Shown here piece after piece: positions 31,976 through 61,106 of a DNA stretch of 64,000 nt; within the stretch, counting starts at the first letter, position 1, and each line of letters opens with the position of its first letter. Position numbers and translations under genes: made by a program. The stretch is taken from contig NZ_PDWW01000021.1 in NCBI RefSeq assembly GCF_010093445.1, positions 1-64,000 of the forward strand, read 5' to 3'. The notes under the pieces were generated by a model. The model did no database searches. It worked only from the letters and a program-made list of their open reading frames with translations, and was not told the origin of the DNA. Origin of the DNA: Pseudoxanthomonas japonensis. GTDB lineage: Bacteria > Pseudomonadota > Gammaproteobacteria > Xanthomonadales > Xanthomonadaceae.

Positions 31976-33973
31976 TCAGGCGGCCTGCTGCATCCGGCGC
32001 GTGCGCACCAGGCCGCCGACGTCGACGATCAGGGCGACGCGGCCATCGCCGAGGATGGTGGCGCCGGAGATACCGTCGATGCGGCGGTAGTTGTTCTCGA
32101 GGTTCTTCACCACGACCTGCTGCTGGCCGATCAGTTCGTCGACTTCCAGAGCCAGCTTCTGGCCATCGGCTTCCACCACCACCACCAGTTGGTCGGCGTT
32201 GCGGTGGTCGCCGTAGCGGTAGTACTCGTTCAACGCGACGATCGGCAGATACTCGCCGCGCACGCGCAGCACGCGTCCGTCGCCGGCCACCGTGCGCACG
32301 TCTTCGTCCTTGGGCTGGAGCGCTTCCAGCACGTAGGTCAGGGGCAGGATCAGGGTTTCGTCGCCGACCGACACGGCCATGCCGTCGAGGATGGCCAGCG
32401 TCAGCGGCAGGCGGATCACCACACGGGTGCCGTGGCCGGCGGCGCTCTCGAGCTGCACTTCGCCACCGAGCGCCTGGATGTTGCGGCGGACCACGTCCAT
32501 GCCGACGCCACGACCGGACAGGTCGGTGACGGCTTCGGCAGTGGAGAACCCCGGCTGGAAGATCAGGTCCCAGACCTGCGCGTCGGTCGGGTTCTCCGGT
32601 ACGGCGAGGCCGCGTTCGGCCGCCTTGGCGAGGATGCGGTCGCGGTTGAGGCCGCGGCCGTCGTCGCTGACTTCGATGACGATATGGCCGCCCTGGTGCG
32701 AGGCTGCCAGCGTGATGGTGCCTGTCTCGTCCTTGCCCGCCTGCGCACGCACGTCGGGCATCTCGAGACCATGGTCGATCGAGTTGCGCACCAGGTGCAC
32801 CAGCGGATCGGCGATGCGTTCGATCAGGCCCTTGTCCAGTTCGGTGCCTTCGCCGACGGTGCGCAGACGCACCTGTTTGCCGAGGCGCGCGGACAGGTCG
32901 CGGACCAGGCGCGGGAAGCGGCGGAACACCGCGTCCACCGGCAGCATGCGCACGCCGATGACGGCTTCCTGCAGGTCGCGGGTGTTGCGTTCCAGCAGAT
33001 CCAGGCCGGCGAACAGGCGCTCGCACTGGGCCTGGTCGAGCAGGCCGGAGACCTGCTTCAGCATGGCCTGGGTGATGACGAGTTCGCCGACCAGGTTGAT
33101 CAGTCCGTCGATCTTGTCGACGCTGACGCGGATGGAGGTTTCGGCGGCATCGTTGGCGGCCGGCGTGGCAGCTGCGGCAGGCGCCTGTGCGCCACTCGCG
33201 GCGACGGCGGTCACCGGTTGCGCGGCGACGGCAACGGCCTCGCCCGGCACGGCGGTGCGCTGCATCGGCTGGATGTCGAGTTCGCAGTCGTCGACGACCC
33301 AGGCGAACACGTCATCCACCGCGCTGCGCGGCACCTTGCCGATCAGGCCGAGATCCCACGCCAGGTAGGCTTCCAGCGGATCGATCTGCTCGAAGCCGGG
33401 CAGGCGTTCCATGCGGCACGCGATCTCCAGCGGGCCGAGGTGTTCCAGTTCGCGCAGGATGCGCAGCGGATCGTTGCCGCTCATGAACAGCGACGGCGCC
33501 GGGGTGAAGCCGATCTTCCAGCCGTCGGGTTCGGCATCGGCGACCGCTGCGGTGGCGGGTGAGGCGGCGGCAGCTGGCGCATCCTGGCCGGACAGCACCG
33601 CGTTGAGGCGGTCCTTCATGGCCTGCACGGCAGCGGGATCGGCCGGCGTACCGTGTTCGGCTTCGGCCAGCAGGGTGCGCAGCACGTCGACGGAGGCGAG
33701 CATGGCGTCGACGGCGGGCGGGCTGACCGCACGCTGGCCGGCACGCAGTTCATCCAGCAGCGTTTCCAGCACGTGGGTCATGCCGGCGATGGCATCGAAG
33801 CCGAACGTCGCCGAGCCGCCCTTGATGGAGTGCGCGGCGCGGAAGATGGAGTTGATCAGGTCGCCGTCGCGGTTGCCCTGTTCCAGCGACAGCAGGCCGG
33901 CTTCCATGGCTTCCAGTCCTTCGCGGCTTTCCTCGAAGAACGTGGCGTGGAAGCGCTGCATGTCCATGTTCAT
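31976..33973 (-). CDS. cheA: Chemotaxis histidine kinase CheA (STAS-cheY-cheA operon)
   Basis: 665-residue cytoplasmic kinase that receives MCP signals and phosphorylates CheY. An N-terminal Hpt domain has the phospho-histidine in AAHSIKGGSATFG (about residue 48). Residues ~150-235 are a regulator-binding domain (GWKIGFTPAPSLFMSGNDPLRILREL). A dimerisation helix pair follows (INLVGELVITQAML), then the ATPase with N box (HLVRNSIDHGLE), G1 (DDGRGLNRD) and G2 (GRGVGMDVVRRN), and a CheW-like domain at the C-terminus. Compared with the second CheA here it has a real P2-like module. Last gene of a unit with STAS and cheY under a sigma-28 promoter, pointing toward the MCP cluster. Confidence 0.95.
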   Translation of the reverse strand: MNMDMQRFHATFFEESREGLEAMEAGLLSLEQGNRDGDLINSIFRAAHSIKGGSATFGFDAIAGMTHVLETLLDELRAGQRAVSPPAVDAMLASVDVLRTLLAEAEHGTPADPAAVQAMKDRLNAVLSGQDAPAAAASPATAAVADAEPDGWKIGFTPAPSLFMSGNDPLRILRELEHLGPLEIACRMERLPGFEQIDPLEAYLAWDLGLIGKVPRSAVDDVFAWVVDDCELDIQPMQRTAVPGEAVAVAAQPVTAVAASGAQAPAAAATPAANDAAETSIRVSVDKIDGLINLVGELVITQAMLKQVSGLLDQAQCERLFAGLDLLERNTRDLQEAVIGVRMLPVDAVFRRFPRLVRDLSARLGKQVRLRTVGEGTELDKGLIERIADPLVHLVRNSIDHGLEMPDVRAQAGKDETGTITLAASHQGGHIVIEVSDDGRGLNRDRILAKAAERGLAVPENPTDAQVWDLIFQPGFSTAEAVTDLSGRGVGMDVVRRNIQALGGEVQLESAAGHGTRVVIRLPLTLAILDGMAVSVGDETLILPLTYVLEALQPKDEDVRTVAGDGRVLRVRGEYLPIVALNEYYRYGDHRNADQLVVVVEADGQKLALEVDELIGQQQVVVKNLENNYRRIDGISGATILGDGRVALIVDVGGLVRTRRMQQAA

Positions 33974-34021: not shown

Positions 34022-34387
34022 TCAGCCCAGGACTTTCTGGACGGTGGCGACCAGCTGTTCCGGGTTGAACGGCTTGACCAGCCAGCCGGTGGCGCCGGCG
34101 GCCTTGCCTTCGGCCTTCTTGTCGGCAGCCGACTCGGTGGTCAGCATCAGCATCGGCGTGAACTTGTAGTCCGGCAGGCCGCGCAGCGCACGGATCAGCG
34201 AGATGCCGTCCATGTTGGGCATGTTGACGTCGGTGACGACGGCATTGAATTTCTGTCCCTGCGCGCGCCCCAGCGCCACCTGGCCGTCTTCGGCTTCATC
34301 CACCGCGAAACCCGCCGAGCTCAGGGCGAAGGCGACCATCTGTCGCATCGAGGCCGAATCGTCCACTACCAGAATGCGTGCGCTCAT
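34022..34387 (-). CDS. cheY: CheY-like response regulator (STAS-cheY-cheA operon)
   Basis: 121-residue single receiver domain. The acidic pair is D-D in VVDDSAS, the phospho-acceptor aspartate is in VVTDVNMPNMDG (about residue 53), the conserved threonine is in MLTTES and the lysine in LVKPFN. No output domain, so it acts by protein contact. Overlaps the STAS gene by four bases (ATGA) and precedes cheA by 48 bases, so the three are co-expressed. The other CheY (41246-41641) sits with CheZ and looks like the motor-binding one; this copy may be a phosphate sink or serve a second pathway (inference). Confidence 0.93.
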   Translation of the reverse strand: MSARILVVDDSASMRQMVAFALSSAGFAVDEAEDGQVALGRAQGQKFNAVVTDVNMPNMDGISLIRALRGLPDYKFTPMLMLTTESAADKKAEGKAAGATGWLVKPFNPEQLVATVQKVLG

Positions 34388-34695
34388 GCGGCGTTCTCCA
34401 CTTGTTGCGTGTTGTGTTCGTTGTCGTTGGCCAGCCCGAGCTGGGGCGCGAGGCCGAGCAGGCGCGCGGCGTCGCGGAAGTTCTGGCTGACCGCACTGAA
34501 ATCGGTGGCCAGGCCGGCCTGCTCGCGCTGGCGCACGAAGCTGCACAGCACCTGCAGGCTGGCGGTATGCACGCGCTGCACGGTGCCGGCGTCCAGCGCC
34601 AGCGGTTCCGGCTGCGCGACGTGCGGGGCCAGGTGCTGCTTGAGGTCGGTGGCGGCCTCGATACCGAGGTCGTCACCCAATGGCACAGCGCTCAT
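34384..34695 (-). CDS. STAS-domain protein
   Basis: 103 residues forming one STAS (anti-sigma-factor-antagonist-like) domain: LGIEAATDLKQHL, LALDAGTVQRVHTASLQVLCSFVRQ. The serine in TASLQVL is at the usual phospho-site position. Single STAS proteins like this are found next to cheY-cheA in several proteobacterial chemotaxis operons; no role there has been clearly shown that I know of. First gene of the unit, 30 bases after a sigma-28 promoter, and overlapping cheY by four bases. Confidence 0.8.
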   Translation of the reverse strand: MSAVPLGDDLGIEAATDLKQHLAPHVAQPEPLALDAGTVQRVHTASLQVLCSFVRQREQAGLATDFSAVSQNFRDAARLLGLAPQLGLANDNEHNTQQVENAA

Positions 34696-34868: not shown

Positions 34869-35969
34869 TCACTGCAGTATCCGCGAGGCGTCCAGCAGGA
34901 TCACCGCGCACTCGTTGAGCCGTGCGACGCCGCGGAACAGCGGATTGGACATGCGGCCGACGCGTGCGTTGTCGGGCGATTCGATCTGCTGGTCGGTGAG
35001 GTTGGCGACGTCCTCGACCGCAGTCACGCGCAGGCCCAGGGTCTCGCCGTGTTCTTCCAGCACCACGATGCGGGTGATGGTGTCGGGCTCGATCGCACGC
35101 CGGCCCAGGTACAGGCCCAGGTCGATCACCGGCACCACCTGGCCGCGCAGGTTCATCACGCCCAGCATGTGCGGGGCGGCGCCGCGCAGCGGCAGCAGGG
35201 TGGCGGGACGCACGACTTCCTGCACCTTCAGCAGTTCCAGCGCGTAGTGCTGCTGGTCGCAGCGCAGCCGCAGCCAGCGGGTCTTGCGTTCGGTCGCGCG
35301 GCGACGCTCGCCGGTGTCGATCGGCGTCTGCATGAAGGGCTTGGCCGGCAGCGGCACGGCCGCATAGGGCACGGGTGCGGCGGGCCTGGCCGGCGATGGA
35401 GCCGGCGCAGACACCGCTGCCGGTGCTGCGACACGCGAGGTCGGCGCGGCGCCGCCGTGCAGGTCGTCGAGCAGGGCTTCGAACTCGTCGTCGTCGATCA
35501 TGTCCGCGCCTGCGCGGACCGGCGTCACGGCAAGCGCGGGAGCGGTGGCCGCCGCTGCGACGGGCGCGGCCACGACGGCCGTCGGCACACCGTCGCCATG
35601 CAGTTCGTCGAGCAGGGCTTCGAACTCATCGTCGCTGATCAGATCGGCTTCGCTGCCGGCGCGCACGGGCGCGACCGCGAGCGATGGCGCGGGAGCAGGC
35701 GCAGAGGCTGGCGGCGCCGGATCGGCGATCGTCGCGCCCGGTGCGGCGTCGCCATGCAGGGTGTCGAGCAGGGCCTCGAATTCGTCGTCGGTGATCAGGT
35801 CGGCTTCGCTGCCGGCGCGTACCGGTGCAACGGCCAGTGCGGGCGCAGCGACCGGTCCGGGATCGACGGCAGGCGCAGCGGCCACCGGCTCGGCGGCCTG
35901 TGCCGGCGGCGCGGCGACGTCGCCGAGCAGGTCGAGCAGGTAGTCGTCGAGGACGGCGGGGGTGGTCAT
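34869..35969 (-). CDS. parP: ParP-like CheW-domain protein with three LHG repeats
   Basis: 366 residues. The C-terminal ~150 form a CheW domain (WLRLRCDQQHYALELLKVQEVV, LGVMNLRGQVVPVIDLGLYLG). The N-terminal ~200 are Ala/Pro-rich and carry three near-identical blocks at ~44-77, ~97-129 and ~146-177 with core DDEFEALLD-x-LHG, plus a weaker start (LDDYLLDLLGDVAAP). The same block occurs once in the CheA encoded at 38684. ParP proteins link CheA arrays to the polar ParA-type protein ParC; parC lies immediately upstream with a four-base overlap. The repeats resemble CheY-binding peptides of FliM and CheZ (see findings). Start ATG at 35969. The longer frame read upstream is an artefact over parC. 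Confidence 0.85.
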   Translation of the reverse strand: MTTPAVLDDYLLDLLGDVAAPPAQAAEPVAAAPAVDPGPVAAPALAVAPVRAGSEADLITDDEFEALLDTLHGDAAPGATIADPAPPASAPAPAPSLAVAPVRAGSEADLISDDEFEALLDELHGDGVPTAVVAAPVAAAATAPALAVTPVRAGADMIDDDEFEALLDDLHGGAAPTSRVAAPAAVSAPAPSPARPAAPVPYAAVPLPAKPFMQTPIDTGERRRATERKTRWLRLRCDQQHYALELLKVQEVVRPATLLPLRGAAPHMLGVMNLRGQVVPVIDLGLYLGRRAIEPDTITRIVVLEEHGETLGLRVTAVEDVANLTDQQIESPDNARVGRMSNPLFRGVARLNECAVILLDASRILQ

Positions 35970-36748
35970 GCGGCCTGTTCCGTGTCGCGGGCTTCGGTCA
36001 GCAGCAGCCAGTCGAGCGCGCGCCGGTAGGCCGACAGTCCACGGCCCGGGTAGGCCGCGGCGGGGCTGGAGCGCGTCAGCACGTCGACGCTGCAGATGCG
36101 GGTGTCGTTGGGGATGGCGTCGTTCCAGACGCGTTCGCCGTATTCGTCCTGCATGGCCTTCAGCGTGTCGGCGCCGGTGCGCGTGCGCTTGTCGTACAGG
36201 GTGGGCAGGATCGAGACCGGCAGTTCGCGGTGACGCGAGCGCTGGATCATCTCCGCCGTGCGGCACATGCCCTTGAGGCCGTGCAGCGCGAGCGGCTCGG
36301 TCTGTGTCGGGATGATGACGTGGTCGGCCGCGGCCAGCGCGTTGACCATCAGCAGGCCGAGTGTGGGCGGGCAGTCGAACAGCACGTGGTCCCAGGCATG
36401 ACCGCCGCGCGCCAGTGCATTGGACAGTGCCAGGCCGAGGCCCGGCTGGGTCGCGCTGCGGCGTTCCAGCGTCGCCAGCGGCGTCTGCGCGGCGACGAAG
36501 GAGAGGTTCTCGATCTCGGTGCTGCGCGCCACGCTGGCCAGCGTCGGCGGCTGTTCGTCGAACAGGTCCAGCACGCCGGTCGGCTGCGGGTCGGTGGCGA
36601 CACCGAAGGCGCGCGTCAGCGACGCATGCGGATCGAGGTCGACGAGCAGCACGCGATGGCCGCGCATGGCCAGGCCGCGGCCGAGGGCGAGGGTGGTGGT
36701 GGTCTTGCCGACGCCGCCTTTCTGGTTGGCGATTGCCCACACGCGCAT
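35966..36748 (-). CDS. parC: ParC, ParA-family ATPase of chemotaxis arrays
   Basis: 260-residue cytoplasmic ATPase. Deviant Walker A KGGVGKTTTTLALG (residues ~10-23) with the signature lysine, Walker A' region LLVDLDPHASLT, and Walker B-like HVLFDCPPTLG. Next to motCD and a CheW-domain protein, this is the ParC type that places chemotaxis clusters at the cell pole rather than a plasmid partition protein. No ParB gene adjoins. The start is ATG at 36748, overlapping the motD stop (TGATG); a GTG one codon earlier is possible. Co-expressed with motC, motD and parP from the sigma-28 promoter at 38475. Confidence 0.88.
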   Translation of the reverse strand: MRVWAIANQKGGVGKTTTTLALGRGLAMRGHRVLLVDLDPHASLTRAFGVATDPQPTGVLDLFDEQPPTLASVARSTEIENLSFVAAQTPLATLERRSATQPGLGLALSNALARGGHAWDHVLFDCPPTLGLLMVNALAAADHVIIPTQTEPLALHGLKGMCRTAEMIQRSRHRELPVSILPTLYDKRTRTGADTLKAMQDEYGERVWNDAIPNDTRICSVDVLTRSSPAAAYPGRGLSAYRRALDWLLLTEARDTEQAA

Positions 36749-37707
36749 CACTGGACTCCTTCATGGACCTGGGGCGCCGGCGGCGCTCCGGGCATGGGCG
36801 ACGCGGCGTGGGCCGGCAGCGGCGGCAGCGAGATCACCGACGGCGGCGGGACCTGTTGCTGTGCATGCAAGTCCGGTGCCGGACCGGTGGGACTGGCCAG
36901 GATGATCAGCAGCACGCGGCGGTTGGCATTGCGGCCTTCCTGGGTGGCGTTGTCGGCGATGGGGCGGAACTCGCCGTAGCCGATCATCGCCAGCCGCTCC
37001 GGCGGAATTCCGTCGCGCACGAACAGGTGCACCACGCTGGCCGCGCGTGCGGACGACAGCTCCCAGTTGGAAGGGAACTGCGAGGTGCGGATCGGGCGAT
37101 CGTCGGTATAGCCCTCCACCCGCACCGAGTTGGGCACGTTGCCGAGCACCGCGGCGAGCTTGCCGACGGTCTGCTGGGCCTGGGGGTCCAGCGCGGCGGA
37201 GCCGGTGGCGAACAGGATGTCGCTGTTGATCTGCACTTCCAGCCACAGTGCCGAGCGCTTGATGGTGACCAGCTTCTCGTCGATCAGCGGCGCCAGCGCG
37301 CGCTCGAGATCGTCGGCGATGCGCTTGAGTTCGCCCTGTGCGGCCTGCAGGCCCTTGGCGTCGAGCGACATGTTCATCTGCGACGCCATCGCCGCCAGCA
37401 GGGTGACGTTGGGCGACGGCGAGGGCGCGGACGGCCCCTTCTTGGCGCCGGACTTGATCGGCGACGGCCGGTCGTAGTCCGCGCCCTGCAACTGGTGGTT
37501 GCCCACCTGCACCGGATTGATCGTGCGCGGTGCACCGCCGAAGGCGGCGGTCAGCGAATCGGCCACCACCCGGTACTTGCCCTCGTTGACGGTGGAGATG
37601 GCGTACATCACCACGAAGAAGGCCAGCAGCAGCGTCATCAGGTCGGCATAGGGAATCGCCCAGGCCTCGTGGTTGGCGTGCTCTTCGTGCTTCTTCCTGC
37701 GTGCCAT
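36748..37707 (-). CDS. motD: Flagellar motor stator protein MotD
   Basis: 319 residues. One membrane helix near the N-terminus (AIPYADLMTLLLAFFVVMYAIS) holds the proton-path aspartate in PYADL (about residue 22). A linker and an OmpA-like peptidoglycan-binding domain follow (LFATGSAALDPQAQQ, VEGYTDDRPI, NWELSSARAASVV, RRVLLIIL). The tail is Pro/Ala-rich. MotD anchors the MotC-MotD proton-driven stator to the wall; in Pseudomonas this is the second stator set, suited to swarming. It follows motC by 18 bases. No motAB pair is seen in the window. Confidence 0.93.
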   Translation of the reverse strand: MARRKKHEEHANHEAWAIPYADLMTLLLAFFVVMYAISTVNEGKYRVVADSLTAAFGGAPRTINPVQVGNHQLQGADYDRPSPIKSGAKKGPSAPSPSPNVTLLAAMASQMNMSLDAKGLQAAQGELKRIADDLERALAPLIDEKLVTIKRSALWLEVQINSDILFATGSAALDPQAQQTVGKLAAVLGNVPNSVRVEGYTDDRPIRTSQFPSNWELSSARAASVVHLFVRDGIPPERLAMIGYGEFRPIADNATQEGRNANRRVLLIILASPTGPAPDLHAQQQVPPPSVISLPPLPAHAASPMPGAPPAPQVHEGVQ

Positions 37708-37725
37708 CGCCGTCGTCCCGCCGGC

Positions 37726-38466
37726 TCAGTGCAGGAAGCCGGCCAGCTTGGCCTCGATGTTGCGCGGGTTCTCGCCCTGCGCGATGGCGATCAGGCCCTC
37801 GATGATCATTTCCTGCTCGCGGCTGCGGCCGCCGATCACGCTCTTGAGCTTGCTGGCGATGGGCAGGAAGAACAGGTTGGCCGAGGCGATGCCGTAGATG
37901 GTCGCAGTGAACGCAGCGGCGATGCCGTGGCCCAGCTTGCTGGGGTCGGCCAGGTTCTTCATCACCGCGATCAGGCCGAACACCGCGCCGATGATGCCCA
38001 GCGTGGGCGCATACACGCCCATCGCCTCGAAGACCTTGGCGGCGGCCAGGTCCTGGTGTTCCTGGCCGTTGAGGTCGATTTCCATCATGTGGCGGATCGC
38101 CTCCGGCTCCACGCCGTCGACCAGCATCTGGAGGCCCTTCTTGAGGAACGGATCGTCGAGCTGGTTCACGACCGGCTCGAGTCCCAGCAGGCCCTGCTTG
38201 CGGGCGATGTTGCTCCATTCGACGATCTGCGCGACCAGCGCGTCGCCTTCGGTGCCGGGCGGACGGATGATCCAGCGCACGATCGCCAGGGCGCGCTTGA
38301 ACACCGGCGGCGGCGTGTGCACCAGGATCGCGGCGATGGTGCCGAGGATGACGATGACGAATGCCGCCGACGACCACAGCGACGACAGGCCCGCGCCCTT
38401 GAGGATGCTGCCGCCCACCAGGGCGACCAGCGCCAGCAGGAGTCCGATGAGGCTGAAGATGTCCAT
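37726..38466 (-). CDS. motC: Flagellar motor stator protein MotC
   Basis: 246-residue inner-membrane protein with four helices (IGLLLALVALVGGSIL, SSAAFVIVILGTIAAILV, TLGIIGAVFGLIAVM, AAFTATIYGIASANLFFLPIA) and a large cytoplasmic loop between helices two and three, as in MotA/MotC. It makes the stator pore with MotD and transmits torque to FliG. The motC-motD-parC-parP order is that of Pseudomonas chemotaxis cluster I, although cheB and cheW are absent here. A sigma-28 promoter lies eight bases before the ATG at 38466, so the leader is extremely short. Confidence 0.93.
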   Translation of the reverse strand: MDIFSLIGLLLALVALVGGSILKGAGLSSLWSSAAFVIVILGTIAAILVHTPPPVFKRALAIVRWIIRPPGTEGDALVAQIVEWSNIARKQGLLGLEPVVNQLDDPFLKKGLQMLVDGVEPEAIRHMMEIDLNGQEHQDLAAAKVFEAMGVYAPTLGIIGAVFGLIAVMKNLADPSKLGHGIAAAFTATIYGIASANLFFLPIASKLKSVIGGRSREQEMIIEGLIAIAQGENPRNIEAKLAGFLH

Positions 38467-38474
38467 GTAGCGAT

Positions 38475-38501
38475 CTATCGGCCCGGTTCAGGTGGACTTG
38501 A
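38475..38501 (-). promoter_or_regulatory. Putative sigma-28 promoter of motC-motD-parC-parP
   Basis: Minus strand: TCAA, 15 bases, GCCGATAG. The -10 is only eight bases from the ATG at 38466, so the transcript would be nearly leaderless. It separates motC from the second cheA transcriptionally. Confidence 0.7.
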
Positions 38502-38558
38502 GGTGGCGCGGGTGTGAGGCGACGCGACTCGCGACCCGCATCACACCCGGATCTCTGC

Positions 38559-38653
38559 TGTGGGAGCGACGTAAGTCGCGATGGCCGCGAGACGACGTGG
38601 AGCAGGGTCTGGATGGCTGAAGGAAAGAGCTCGCGACTTACGTCGCTCCCACA
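38559..38653. repeat. REP-like inverted repeat (TGTGGGAGCGACG type)
   Basis: The 23-base arm TGTGGGAGCGACGTAAGTCG(CGA) at 38559-38581 recurs as a perfect reverse complement at 38631-38653, separated by 49 bases. A relative lies at 61741-61868. The spacer also holds no gene. Such GTAGGAGCGAC-type elements are common between genes in Xanthomonadaceae. Confidence 0.85.
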
Positions 38654-38683
38654 ACAGCCCGGGTTCCACAGACCGCCAGCGGG

Positions 38684-40426
38684 TCACGCCGTCGCGCGCA
38701 GCCCGTCTACATCGAGGATCAGCGCCATGCGGCCGTCGCCGATCAGGGTGGCGCCGGCGTAGCCGGGCAGGCCGCGCACGGCGCGCGGCAGGGGCTTGAT
38801 GACGACTTCCTCGCGCCCGCGCACCTGGTCGACGATCAGGCCGAAGCGCTGTTCGCCCATCTGCAGCACCACGATGGTGAGCAGCGGCGCCATCACCGGG
38901 TCCACGCGCAACCATTGGCGCAGGTCCACCAGCGGCAGCGTGTGGCTCTGGCGGTCGAGTACGGCCTGGCCGTCGAACCAGCGCAGGCTTTCGGACGGCG
39001 CGTGCAGCACTTCCATCACCCGCGCCAGTGGCAGCGCGTAGACCGGGTCGCCGGCCTGCACCAGCAGCGTGGGCAGGATGGCCAGCGTCAACGGCACGCG
39101 GATGACGAAGCGGCTGCCGCGACCCACGTCGGAATGGATGGTGATCTGCCCGCTGAGTTCGCGGATGCGCGATTGCACTACGTCCATGCCGACGCCGCGG
39201 CCGGAGATGTCGGTGACCACGGCCTTGGTCGAGAAGCCGGCCATGAAGACCAGTTGCAGGCATTCGTCGTGGGTCAGGCGGGCGGCGGCCTCCGGGTCGA
39301 TCAGCCCCTTCTCCAGCGCCTTCGCGCGCAGGCGTTCGGGGTCGATGCCGGCGCCGTCGTCGCGGATCTCGATGGTGACGAAGTCGCCTTCCTGCTGGGC
39401 CGACAGGCGCACGTGGCCCTGTCGCGGCTTGCCGCAGGCCTCGCGCAGCGAGGGCACTTCGATGCCGTGGTCGATGGCGTTACGCACCAGGTGCACCAGC
39501 GGATCGGCCAGCGCCTCCACCAGGTTGCGGTCGAGCTCGGTGTCGGCGCCGACCAGTTCCAGGTCGACTTCCTTCTGCAACTGGCGGGCGACGTCGCGCG
39601 CGACCTTGGGAAAGCGCGAGAACACCTTGCCGACCGGTTGCATGCGCGTGCGCATGACCGCGGTCTGCAGGCGTGCGGTGGCGATGTCCAGGCTGCTGAC
39701 GGCGCGGTCGAGTTCCTCGTCGCGGATGCGCGCGCGCAGGGTCTTCAGGCGGTTGCGCGACAGCACCAACTCACCCACGAGATTGACGATGGCATCCAGC
39801 CGCTTGGTGTCCACGCGGATGGTCTGTTCGGCTTCGCCGCCGGCTTTGGTCGCTGGCTTGGGCGTCGCGGGTTTCGCCGGCGCCGGGACGGCCGCGACGG
39901 GTGCGGATGGCACGACGCTGGTCGGTGCGCCGCCGCCATGCAACTGGTCGAGCAGGGCCTCGAACTCGTCGTCGCCGATCAGGTCGCCGCCGGCCTGCGG
40001 TGACGGTGCGGCTGCCGCCGCGGGTTTCGGCGCCGGTGCGGGTGTGCTGCCGTGCACGTCGAACTGCTCGATCAGCGCCTGCGGCGCGTGCGGCGGTTCC
40101 TCGCCGGCGCCGACGGCGTCCAACATCTGCTGCAGCCAGTCCAGCGATTGCTGGGCGGCGTCGAAGTGTTGCGCTTCCAGCGTCGCCTGTCCCGCGCGCA
40201 CGAGCCCCAGTGTTTCCTCGGCGGCATGGCAGAGGTTGACCATGGCCTGGATGCCGAGGAAGCCGGCGCCGCCCTTCAGCGTGTGGAAGCCGCGGAACAC
40301 CGCATTGAGCTGGCCGCTGTCGGAAGGGTCGTGTTCCAGCGTCACCAACTGTTCGCCCAGCCGGTCGAGGATCTCCTGTGCTTCGATCAGGAAGTCGGCG
40401 GCGATTTCGGGCGTGACGGCGGACAT
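38684..40426 (-). CDS. cheA: Chemotaxis histidine kinase CheA (cheYZ-linked), without a recognisable P2 domain
   Basis: 580 residues. An Hpt domain has the phospho-histidine at H48 (GFHTLKGGAGFLG). Then comes an Ala/Pro-rich linker that holds no globular P2 domain but one block DDEFEALLDQLHG at ~151-164, matching the three blocks in ParP. The dimerisation region (VNLVGELVLSRNRL), ATPase (HLVRNAIDHGIE, DDGAGIDPE, GRGVGMDVVQSR) and CheW-like C-terminus follow. It lies downstream of cheY, cheZ and a small membrane-protein gene, and upstream of motC-parC-parP, so it is the likely kinase of the polar flagellar array. The block may replace P2 as CheY-docking site (inference). Confidence 0.94.
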   Translation of the reverse strand: MSAVTPEIAADFLIEAQEILDRLGEQLVTLEHDPSDSGQLNAVFRGFHTLKGGAGFLGIQAMVNLCHAAEETLGLVRAGQATLEAQHFDAAQQSLDWLQQMLDAVGAGEEPPHAPQALIEQFDVHGSTPAPAPKPAAAAAPSPQAGGDLIGDDEFEALLDQLHGGGAPTSVVPSAPVAAVPAPAKPATPKPATKAGGEAEQTIRVDTKRLDAIVNLVGELVLSRNRLKTLRARIRDEELDRAVSSLDIATARLQTAVMRTRMQPVGKVFSRFPKVARDVARQLQKEVDLELVGADTELDRNLVEALADPLVHLVRNAIDHGIEVPSLREACGKPRQGHVRLSAQQEGDFVTIEIRDDGAGIDPERLRAKALEKGLIDPEAAARLTHDECLQLVFMAGFSTKAVVTDISGRGVGMDVVQSRIRELSGQITIHSDVGRGSRFVIRVPLTLAILPTLLVQAGDPVYALPLARVMEVLHAPSESLRWFDGQAVLDRQSHTLPLVDLRQWLRVDPVMAPLLTIVVLQMGEQRFGLIVDQVRGREEVVIKPLPRAVRGLPGYAGATLIGDGRMALILDVDGLRATA

Positions 40427-40628: not shown

Positions 40629-41246
40629 CTACAACCCCAGGCCGGACAGCAGGTCGTCGGCGTCGTCCTGCGAGAACGCGTTGCGGTCAAGACCAGCAAC
40701 GGCCGGGCCGGCGAGTTCTGAAGGCTTGTCGCGGTTTTTTTCCGGCGGCGGCAGGCCGAGCGCGCCGAAACCCTCGTGCACGCGGCGCACGATGCCGGCG
40801 ACGCGGCGGATGATCTGGCCGGTCAGGTCCTGGTAACTCTGCGCCAGCGCCATCTCGGACAGCCCCTTGCCGATGCGGTCCACCAGCGCGGCCTGTTCGG
40901 CCGACAGCGCGGTGCCTTTCAGCTCGGTGGCATAGCCACGGCATTGTTCGGCCAGGTCGAGGGTCTTGTGGCTGGCCTGCTCGGTCATCTCGACCACATG
41001 GTCCAGGCGCGCGCAGGCATCGTCGAGCTCGCCGGCTTCCGGCGGCGGCAGTTCGCCCAGCGTCTGCGCCAGTTCGCGGGCCAGGCGGCCCAGGCCCTGC
41101 ATCATCGGCTGCGTGCGCCAGGCGGCGATGGCATCCAGTTCGCGGCGCCAGCCGGCTTCGTCGCCGTGTTCCAGCGCGTCGAGCGCGCTCTGAAGTTTCT
41201 CCACCAACGCCGCGCGGGCACTGGTGGCGTCGGCGACGGCGTTCAT
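40629..41246 (-). CDS. cheZ: Protein phosphatase CheZ
   Basis: 205 residues, mostly helical, typical of CheZ. It speeds loss of phosphate from CheY. The active-site glutamine lies in AQSYQDLTGQIIRRV (about residue 145), matching the family QDLTGQ. The C-terminal helix SQDDADDLLSGLGL is the CheY-P-binding tail. Its start overlaps the cheY stop by one base (TGATG). Ala/Pro linker between core and tail as in other CheZ. Operon order cheY-cheZ-small protein-cheA. Confidence 0.94.
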   Translation of the reverse strand: MNAVADATSARAALVEKLQSALDALEHGDEAGWRRELDAIAAWRTQPMMQGLGRLARELAQTLGELPPPEAGELDDACARLDHVVEMTEQASHKTLDLAEQCRGYATELKGTALSAEQAALVDRIGKGLSEMALAQSYQDLTGQIIRRVAGIVRRVHEGFGALGLPPPEKNRDKPSELAGPAVAGLDRNAFSQDDADDLLSGLGL

Positions 41247-41641
41247 CAGGCGGCCGCTCCCAGGCGTTCGAAGATCTTGCCCAGCTTCTCTTCCAGCGTC
41301 TGCGCGGTGAACGGCTTGATGATGTAGCCGTTCACGCCGTTCTGCGCGGCCTCGATGATCTGTTCGCGCTTGGCCTCGGCGGTCACCATCAGCACCGGCA
41401 ACGTCTTGAAGCGGTCGTCGGCGCGGATCGCCTTGAGCAGCTCGATGCCGGTCATGCCGGGCATGTTCCAGTCGGTGACCACGAAATCGAAACTGCCCTG
41501 GCCCAGCGCGGTCAGCGCGGTGGTGCCGTCGTCGGCCTCGGCGGTGTTGGTGTAGCCGAGGTCGTTGAGCAGGTTCTTGATGATGCGGCGCATGGTGGAG
41601 AAGTCGTCCACGATCAGGATGCGCATGTTCTTGTTGGTCAC
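41246..41641 (-). CDS. cheY: Chemotaxis response regulator CheY (cheZ-linked)
   Basis: 131-residue receiver: acidic pair in [11 protein letters not shown], phospho-acceptor aspartate in [12 protein letters not shown] (about residue 59), threonine in MVTAEA, and lysine in YIIKPFTA. The DFSTMRRI and TDWNMP signatures are those of motor-binding CheY. Phospho-CheY binds FliM to change rotation. Start at 41641; an internal ATG at 41626 is possible. A sigma-28 promoter lies 40 bases upstream, separating this unit from fliA. Confidence 0.95.
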
Positions 41642-60066: not shown

Positions 60067-61106
60067 GGCGTGGCGTCCTGGAAGGCGACGGGTGCGAGGG
60101 TGGGGCGGGCGTTCGCGGTTTGCTGGTGGCGGCCGCCGGGCGGATGGTGGGCGGTGATCTTCACGGCGTTCTGTCCGTTGGAAATGCCGAATTCGCCGGT
60201 GAAGACGGGCACCTGCTCGACGCAGACCGGCACGGACTTGGGCACGTCGATGGGCAGGATGTCGCCCACTTTCAGGCGGGTGAGTTCGCGCAGGTTGATG
60301 CGCTTCTCCGCCAGCACGCTGGAGACGGTGACTTCGGCGGTGCGCAGCTGTTCGTGCATGGTCACGCGGAAGCTGTCGTCGTCGTGCACGCGGTCGGACT
60401 GGATGCCGGCGTCGAGCAGTTCGCGGATCGGTTCCAGCATCGAGTAGGGCAGGGTGACGTGCAGGTCGCCGCCGCCGCCGTCCAGTTCCACATGGAAGCG
60501 GCTGACCACGACGTACTCGCGCGGGCTGACGATGTTGGCGAAGTGCGGGTTGACCTCGCTGGTGATGTACTCGAAGTCCACCGGCATCACCGGCGCCCAG
60601 GCGTCGATCAGGTCGGCGAAGGTCTGCTTCAGCAGCAGCTGGATCACCCGCATTTCGGTGGCGGTGAACTCGCGGCCTTCGATCTTGGCCGGGTAGCGAC
60701 CGTCGCCGCCGAAGAAGTTGTCCACCATGGTGAACACCAGCTTCGGCTCGAACACGATCAGGCCCACGCCGCGCAGCGGCTTGAACTTCACCAGATTGAG
60801 GTTGGTGGGCACGTAGAGCGAATGCAGGTAGTCGCTGAACTTGACGGTCTCGATGCCGCGCACCGACAGCTCGGCCGAGCGGCGCAGCAGGTTGAACAGG
60901 CCGATTCGCCACGTGCGCACGAAGCGCTCGTTGATCATCTCCAGTGTCGGCAGCCGGCCGCGCACGATGCGGTCCTGGCTGGCGAAATCGTAGGTCCGCG
61001 CGATGCTGGGATCGTGCGGCGGCTCTTCGGTCTCGATCGCACCCGTGTCGACGCCGTTGAGCAGGGCGTCGATCTCGTCTTGCGACAGCAGGTCACTGGT
61101 CATCAT
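60063..61106 (-). CDS. fliM: Flagellar motor switch protein FliM
   Basis: 347 residues. The N-terminal LSQDEIDALLNGV is the CheY-P-binding peptide. The middle CheC-like domain (RTYDFASQDRIVRGRLPTLEMINERFVRTW ... VFTMVDNFFGGDG) and C-terminal SpoA domain (VLAEKRINLRELTRLKVGDILPID) follow. It sets rotation direction when CheY-P binds. A C-terminal extra stretch of about 30 residues (HHPPGGRHQQTANARPT) is unusual. Start at 61106; a second ATG is the next codon. Confidence 0.97.
   Translation of the reverse strand: MMTSDLLSQDEIDALLNGVDTGAIETEEPPHDPSIARTYDFASQDRIVRGRLPTLEMINERFVRTWRIGLFNLLRRSAELSVRGIETVKFSDYLHSLYVPTNLNLVKFKPLRGVGLIVFEPKLVFTMVDNFFGGDGRYPAKIEGREFTATEMRVIQLLLKQTFADLIDAWAPVMPVDFEYITSEVNPHFANIVSPREYVVVSRFHVELDGGGGDLHVTLPYSMLEPIRELLDAGIQSDRVHDDDSFRVTMHEQLRTAEVTVSSVLAEKRINLRELTRLKVGDILPIDVPKSVPVCVEQVPVFTGEFGISNGQNAVKITAHHPPGGRHQQTANARPTLAPVAFQDATP

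Follow-up and report, generated by a model that had tools for sequence, protein, structure and literature searches.

The chemotaxis kinase CheA of Pseudoxanthomonas japonensis carries, in the linker between its P1 and P3 domains, a short acidic peptide, DDEFEALLDxLHG, that resembles the CheY-binding peptides of FliM and CheZ. The peptide occurs once in CheA and three times in the scaffold protein ParP within the 64,000 nucleotides that we analysed (contig NZ_PDWW01000021.1, assembly GCF_010093445.1, positions 1 to 64,000; hereafter the window). In relatives, many CheAs have it, mostly in several copies, and few ParPs do. We consider it probable, from sequence comparison, that such FliM/CheZ-like docking peptides on the CheA linker stand in for the missing CheY-binding domain P2 and hold CheY.

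When up to two mismatches were allowed, a search of the window for GAYGAYGARTTYGARGC returned four matches, all exact and all on the minus strand (35476, 35617, 35773 and 39957). The mean chance expectation is 0.26 and none of 100 shuffles got to four; the three ParP blocks and single CheA block of the original prediction were thus recovered exactly in place. As DNA, the four copies belong to a single repeat family: with one taken as the reference, the other three are 64-83% identical to it over 100 nt. Across the 4.08-Mb genome the pattern [DE]E[FI][DE]A[LF][LF] has five matches: the ParP blocks account for three and CheA for one, and the fifth is the N-terminus of FliM (LLSQDEIDALLNGV). The backward pattern has none. 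Because the pattern was drawn with F or I, a FliM match was possible by design; the lack of other proteins was not designed. In 33 genomes it gave 84 matches, as against 1 for the backward control; a script assigned the 84 to CheA (31), FliM (26), ParP (6) and elsewhere (21). Among the latter, 3 lie in genomes without a tabulated FliM position: one of these, in genome G379, is FliM by its letters, and the other 2 may be FliM. Five of the remaining ones were read and look unrelated, judging by the families to which we presume they belong.

In CheA the motif is the rule throughout this clade, which we take to be the 'F6 class'. Orthologues (at least 50% identical over P3-P5) were taken from the class, the family and the window itself, leaving out matches shorter than 250 residues and linkers shorter than 30; 98 of their 102 P1-P3 linkers carry the motif, with 1, 2, 3 and 4 copies in 33, 29, 31 and 5 proteins. 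The exceptions are L079, the congeneric pair L048 and L078, and L136 with a masked linker. The named loci, from Alteromonas, Shewanella, Pseudoalteromonas, Vibrio, Photobacterium, Aeromonas, Pseudomonas and other genera, are the best 80 of at least 582 matches that were confirmed; every one of their 80 CheAs has the motif, with 2, 3, 4 and 5 copies in 1, 69, 8 and 2 of them. A phylum-wide draw gave 31 orthologue loci, eight of them genomes already counted, the window's included; 30 carry the motif and the remaining one, L343, is split between contigs. No copy was found in 19 paralogous CheAs, 18 of which show by eye a P2-like GNDP region, nor in the 17 top-listed CheAs that lie outside the class. 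A further 21 CheAs from 20 loci, serving as non-orthologous controls, held one real copy (L146) and two regular-expression matches that look spurious (L152, L157).

When aligned, the motif residues are near-invariant within an otherwise poorly conserved CheA linker. Most of the CheAs read have two to five copies with differing tails, the first often without HG. This variety speaks for another reading, in which the motif docks some other shared partner (the CheB receiver, CheV, CheZ, CheW or a polar hub) or in which the partner changes from copy to copy, the first binding CheY, for example, and the last ParP. CheB probably follows cheA in many such loci. We nevertheless find this reading decidedly improbable: in many of the proteins the copies are near-identical, and the likeness to FliM and CheZ points to CheY.

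The original prediction also held that this CheA has no recognizable P2 where the motif sits, and two approaches bear it out. Pfam detected neither P2 nor a CheY-binding domain in any of 46 sampled motif-bearing CheAs, E. coli CheA, the positive control, giving PF09078 at 8.2e-17. An AlphaFold2 model of the window's CheA, run with 45 relatives, shows no P2 fold between P1 and P3. In this model P1, P3, P4 and P5 are mostly confident, the linker falls below 50 in per-residue confidence (pLDDT) at residues 127-148 and 164-204, and one helix, at 152-162, forms the sole island in the disordered stretch; that helix is the motif (block 151-160, mean pLDDT 71). Such a linker agrees with a 2023 survey (PMC10782961), in which P2 is absent from over half of CheAs and its region looks unstructured.

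How closely does the motif resemble a known CheY ligand? In a published FliM-CheY study (PMC3774744, Table 3), the contacts of FliM with CheY are L6, Q8, I11, D12 (with K119), L14, L15 and residue 16. The CheA motif, read as LI-S/T-DDEFEALLD, aligns without a gap with FliM ILSQAEIDALLN. In this register we compared 455 CheA copies, 28 FliM N-termini (2 of 30 loci were dropped, their N-terminus missed by the script) and 150 CheZ tails (matches of 60 bits or less were dropped, as were 15 of 165 tails outside the register pattern). Residue character is kept at L6 (in FliM and CheA only), E10, D12, L14 and L15. Position L6 is I in 87% of CheA copies and L in 100% of FliM; E10 is E in 96% and 100%; D12 is E (84%) or D (14%) in CheA and D (100%) in FliM; L14 is L in 93% and 100%; and L15 is L in 98% and 100%. 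The claim that the motif shares the FliM/CheZ pattern therefore stands, with a gapless register and the core E-hydrophobic-[DE]-x-L-L, though Q8 is not kept.

A BLOSUM-smoothed profile of 154 class-level CheA copies, built with no FliM or CheZ included, placed FliM third (14.7) among the 494 open reading frames (ORFs) of the window, behind ParP (33.3) and CheA (31.2); the others scored at most 11.3, and the CheZ ORF came 10th, by its tail, at 8.4. When the loci were read in six frames, 10,024 ORFs resulted, of which the 103 with the F core and 6 of the other 9,921 reached the FliM score of 14.7. Judged from these scores, FliM stands clearly above chance and CheZ modestly so. PDB searches with 28- and 30-residue motif peptides returned FliM only at an E-value of 1.9, and one unrelated chain at 0.21.

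Could the likeness to FliM be a convergence of composition, in a partnerless acidic amphipathic helix or a SHOCT-like module? The six unrelated or unidentified ORFs that reach the FliM score would fit such a case, as would Pfam's SHOCT family, which matches 36 of the 46 CheAs at E below 0.01; the match falls at the motif in the two CheAs whose positions were seen (e.g. L294, L266), and one of the two with scores seen, L294, passes the cutoff. The near-invariance of the motif in its variable linker, and the 84 matches set against a single backward one, make this reading very hard to credit. Such CheAs may be annotated wrongly as SHOCT proteins in databases.

The CheY encoded in the window is the proposed partner. 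Its best PDB match is 3to5, labelled a CheY homolog, which we take, with PMC3774744, to be Vibrio cholerae CheY3. The window's CheY keeps the FliM-contact residues A90, K91, R92, I95, A99, Y106, I108, K119 and K122 (E. coli numbering). Across 179 cognate CheYs, I95, Y106 and K119 are present in all, K91 and A99 in 178 and K122 in 175. The window's second regulator (34022), near the CheA with the P2-like region, has A91, A92, K95, K99, W106 and T119 at these sites.

Several observations weigh against docking of CheY in place of P2. FliM and CheZ use the conserved CheY face as well, so that its conservation does not single out docking on CheA. Q8 is Q in 100% of FliM and of the counted CheZ tails and D (66%) or E (28%) in CheA, which further differs from FliM in having F at I11, D at residue 16 and mostly E or D at I5, and the conserved LHG tail of the motif has no FliM counterpart. 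Pfam's P2 models are insensitive and also overlook the P2-like stretch in the second CheA of the window; by PMC10782961, HMMER detects P2 in fewer than 20% of CheAs, far fewer than profile-profile search does. The AlphaFold2 model thus matters too and is the better evidence, for the window's CheA only. The same survey describes P2 as dispensable for phosphotransfer, so a replacement is not required. Two class members at 46% identity (L373, L374) have no motif in CheA, and one genus, g229 (L048, L078), has it neither in CheA nor in the ParPs read there.

Structure prediction of the motif block with CheY, the check suggested at the outset, gave neither support nor refutation. In a co-fold of CheY, a connector and CheA residues 1-176, both domains and the motif helix (152-164) folded, with block means of 64 and 71 (CheA 146-165) compared with 71 (151-160, helix 152-162) in CheA alone: judged by per-residue confidence, no clear gain for the motif helix. 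The connector consisted of 273 out-of-frame, Arg-rich residues, which makes this a poor test. The idea of a CheY-docking peptide in place of P2 has strong comparative support for CheA, from the FliM register, the near-universal conservation in this clade, the absence from the paralogues read and the conserved CheY face, and draws nothing from the co-fold.

The original prediction had placed its weight on ParP as a multivalent scaffold, and this proved misplaced. Within the window's family (ParPs below 42% identity or 90 bits were dropped), the motif occurs in 6 of 37 ParPs with 1-4 copies: the window (3), L040 (2), L049 (1), L067 (1), L076 (3) and L079 (4). Outside the family it was found in 0 of 114, namely 0 of 39 class-level ORFs and 0 of 75 named ones; 2 of 41 class-level ORFs (L091, L117) had been dropped as not ParP-like, and six further, partly shown candidates were left out. 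Near misses in the named set are the ParP of L296, where the E-F-E-x-L-L core is matched only in the opening strand of the CheW-like domain (PEFEALLFDVKGL), and those of L294 and L297, with a partial DEFEAAVLEE. ParP as the main carrier of the motif was therefore rejected.

Rejected too was the idea that the motif is always in either CheA or ParP. L079 has four copies in ParP and none in CheA, which counts in favour of docking. Genus g229 shows the motif in neither: the CheAs of L048 and L078 lack it, and ParPs from four genomes (two incomplete) carry, where the linker was read, several copies of IAADFLAEMDADPAF. The case of g229 argues against a simple trade between the two proteins. Shared flanks (e.g. 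GGxAPTS) and the single DNA repeat family make copying between cheA and parP likely, as far as sequence can tell. A supposed looser copy at the start of ParP, LDDYLLDLLGD, was discarded, because it fits a separate conserved ParP N-terminus in which Y19 and L23 are invariant in 10 of 10. The copies in ParP are best read as a lineage-specific extra.

Repeated peptides specific to a lineage seem to accumulate in the linkers of ParP. The linkers of L037, L039, L057 and L058 contain 1-4 copies of another repeat, PTWDDLPDEVIYET, replacing the EFEALL blocks, and those of L041-L044, L047, L051, L054 and L301-L303, from several genera, contain (L)LAExDxDPxF-type repeats. About 40 glycines in a row stand close to the beginning of the ParP ORF of L272 (Vibrio fortis), which probably reflects a simple repeat or the assembly. 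In Pseudomonas, L294 and L297 have ParC and ParP homologues beside cheA, whereas PMC12410967 denies related genes in P. aeruginosa.

One published element escaped the original prediction, although it belongs to the same part of CheA. PMC5706961 and PMC7534058 describe a LID between P2 and P3, found only with ParC/ParP and bound by the AIF domain of ParP through W305. The CheA motif could be this LID, or part of it, tying CheA to ParC at the pole, with the ParP copies letting ParP self-associate or compete with CheA. Alignments place the motif copies as the conserved elements of that CheA region, so that LID and motif may overlap, and ParC and ParP are present in most motif loci read; the two were set side by side at the level of the region, from descriptions. 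Yet CheA keeps the motif in L113 and L132, where CheW directly follows ParC, and in L126 and L134, where no ParC was seen. No ParP was seen in these four loci, and a genome-wide ParP profile gave only CheW-level matches, an absence that is provisional since the profile equally failed in G189, G289, G301 and G330, which hold ParP-like ORFs. The motif is also kept in CheA although 35 of 37 family ParPs have no W in their last 45 residues. The window's ParP, which fits the definition of ParP by its C-terminal CheW-like AIF domain beside a ParA-family ATPase, ends in NPLFRGVARLN, with no counterpart of the tryptophan that contacts CheA (W305 in V. cholerae); among named ParPs, 72 of 75 keep R-[PRK]-[WF]-[LM]-x-G. 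Nor does LID binding give any account of the FliM register. We thus regard it as unlikely that the motif serves LID binding in this way.

Table 1. Features of the window; residue numbers are counted from the start codons of ParP (35969) and CheA (40426).
Feature	Position	Strand	Remarks
ParP motif copy 1, DDEFEALLDTLHG	35751..35789	-	ParP residues 61-73
ParP motif copy 2, DDEFEALLDELHG	35595..35633	-	ParP residues 113-125
ParP motif copy 3, DDEFEALLDDLHG	35454..35492	-	ParP residues 160-172
CheA linker motif, DDEFEALLDQLHG	39935..39973	-	CheA residues 152-164, between P1 and P3
CheA	38684..40426	-	Hpt (P1), H-kinase_dim (P3), HATPase_c (P4), CheW (P5); P2 not found
CheY, proposed partner	41246..41641	-	PF00072; keeps FliM-contact residues
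FliM N-terminal CheY-binding peptide, LLSQDEIDALLN	61056..61091	-	
CheZ C-terminal tail, SQDDADDLLSGLGL	40632..40673	-	PF04344
ParP	34869..35969	-	PF01584 1.3e-31; conserved N-terminus, Pro/Ala-rich linker with motif copies, C-terminal CheW-like (AIF) domain
ParC-type ParA-family ATPase, adjoins ParP	35966..36751	-	PF13614 1.6e-42
Second CheA (contrast)	31976..33973	-	Linker with P2-like 'GNDP' region by eye, no motif, no Pfam P2 match
Second CheY-like regulator (contrast)	34022..34390	-	Without most FliM-contact residues

To explain these results, we propose that the motif is a short linear motif of the FliM N-terminal and CheZ C-terminal kind, an acidic amphipathic helix that would dock on the alpha4-beta5-alpha5 face of CheY. 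One to five such copies on the disordered P1-P3 linker would replace the folded P2 in this CheA clade, and a docked CheY would be held next to the phosphorylated histidine of P1. ParP may have gained its copies in this lineage (in L079 it is the only carrier), and a polar scaffold inserted in the array would then add CheY seats beside the kinase. We infer that the motif binds CheY, as well as where it does so and how this would affect phosphotransfer or the local concentration of CheY.

More broadly, and with somewhat more doubt than confidence, we envision that the whole P2-less clade (Vibrio, Shewanella, Pseudomonas, Alteromonas) uses an array of FliM/CheZ-mimicking peptides, such that motor, phosphatase, kinase and, in some lineages, ParP compete for one CheY face, the copy number tunes a polar CheY reservoir, and other P2-less linkers hold pathway-specific docking codes. 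FliM-N, CheZ-C, P2, ParP and LID are all known; what is likely new is the FliM/CheZ-like peptide array as a probable P2 substitute in the kinase. Text searches of the literature returned no description of the motif, although subscription papers mostly lie outside such searches, which are thus no proof of its absence from print; a search of the text of PMC10782961 found neither 'motif' nor 'FliM'. A FliM-like linker peptide would give a concrete and testable answer on P2-less linkers for one large clade. It predicts that point mutations slow phosphotransfer and that kinase, motor and phosphatase compete for one CheY surface, and it would allow CheY docking to be told apart from ParP-dependent positioning in what is now called LID.

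Other CheAs in which no P2 is detected have repeated or conserved linker peptides of their own, GFGFFDDE and PGEVSLDDLERAF among them. A DDGFGFFDDE-type repeat marks another group without a Pfam P2, with 3-5 copies in L149 (2626-4851, 12637-14574) and further cases in G626, G634 and G586; its DNA pattern has 13 matches in 10 genomes, and 11 of them lie immediately upstream of a CheA P3-P5 match, at the place of the linker, which suggests a second docking code. A peptide of the type LRPGEVSLDDLERAFxET, present in 6 of the 17 CheAs from outside the class (L377, L378, L382, L384, L386, L389), is possibly another docking motif.

Set beside known systems, the motif of the CheA linker shares with the FliM N-terminal peptide a 12-residue register with matching hydrophobic and acidic positions, and the face of the partner CheY is conserved. 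It differs in being internal and mostly multi-copy, in having F for I11, E for D12 and D at residue 16, in lacking Q8 and in its added LHG. With the C-terminal helix of CheZ it shares the pattern D-D/E-hydrophobic-D-x-L-L-x-x-L, LLSSLGF resembling LLDQLHG, whereas the CheZ helix is C-terminal and single-copy, with V or A for F and a conserved Q. Compared with the P2 of CheA (PF09078, P2 clan), the site between P1 and P3 is the same and so, we infer, is the job, but P2 is a folded domain, and the motif a single helix predicted within an otherwise disordered linker. CheA-LID coincides with it in the region of CheA and the ParC/ParP setting, while the motif occurs also where no ParP was found. 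Finally, the window's ParP resembles Vibrio ParP, with its AIF domain and N-terminal ParC interaction, in its CheW-like C-terminus, conserved N-terminus, long linker and position beside ParC, and departs from it in the motif copies of its linker and in the W305 segment, which reads NPLFRGV.

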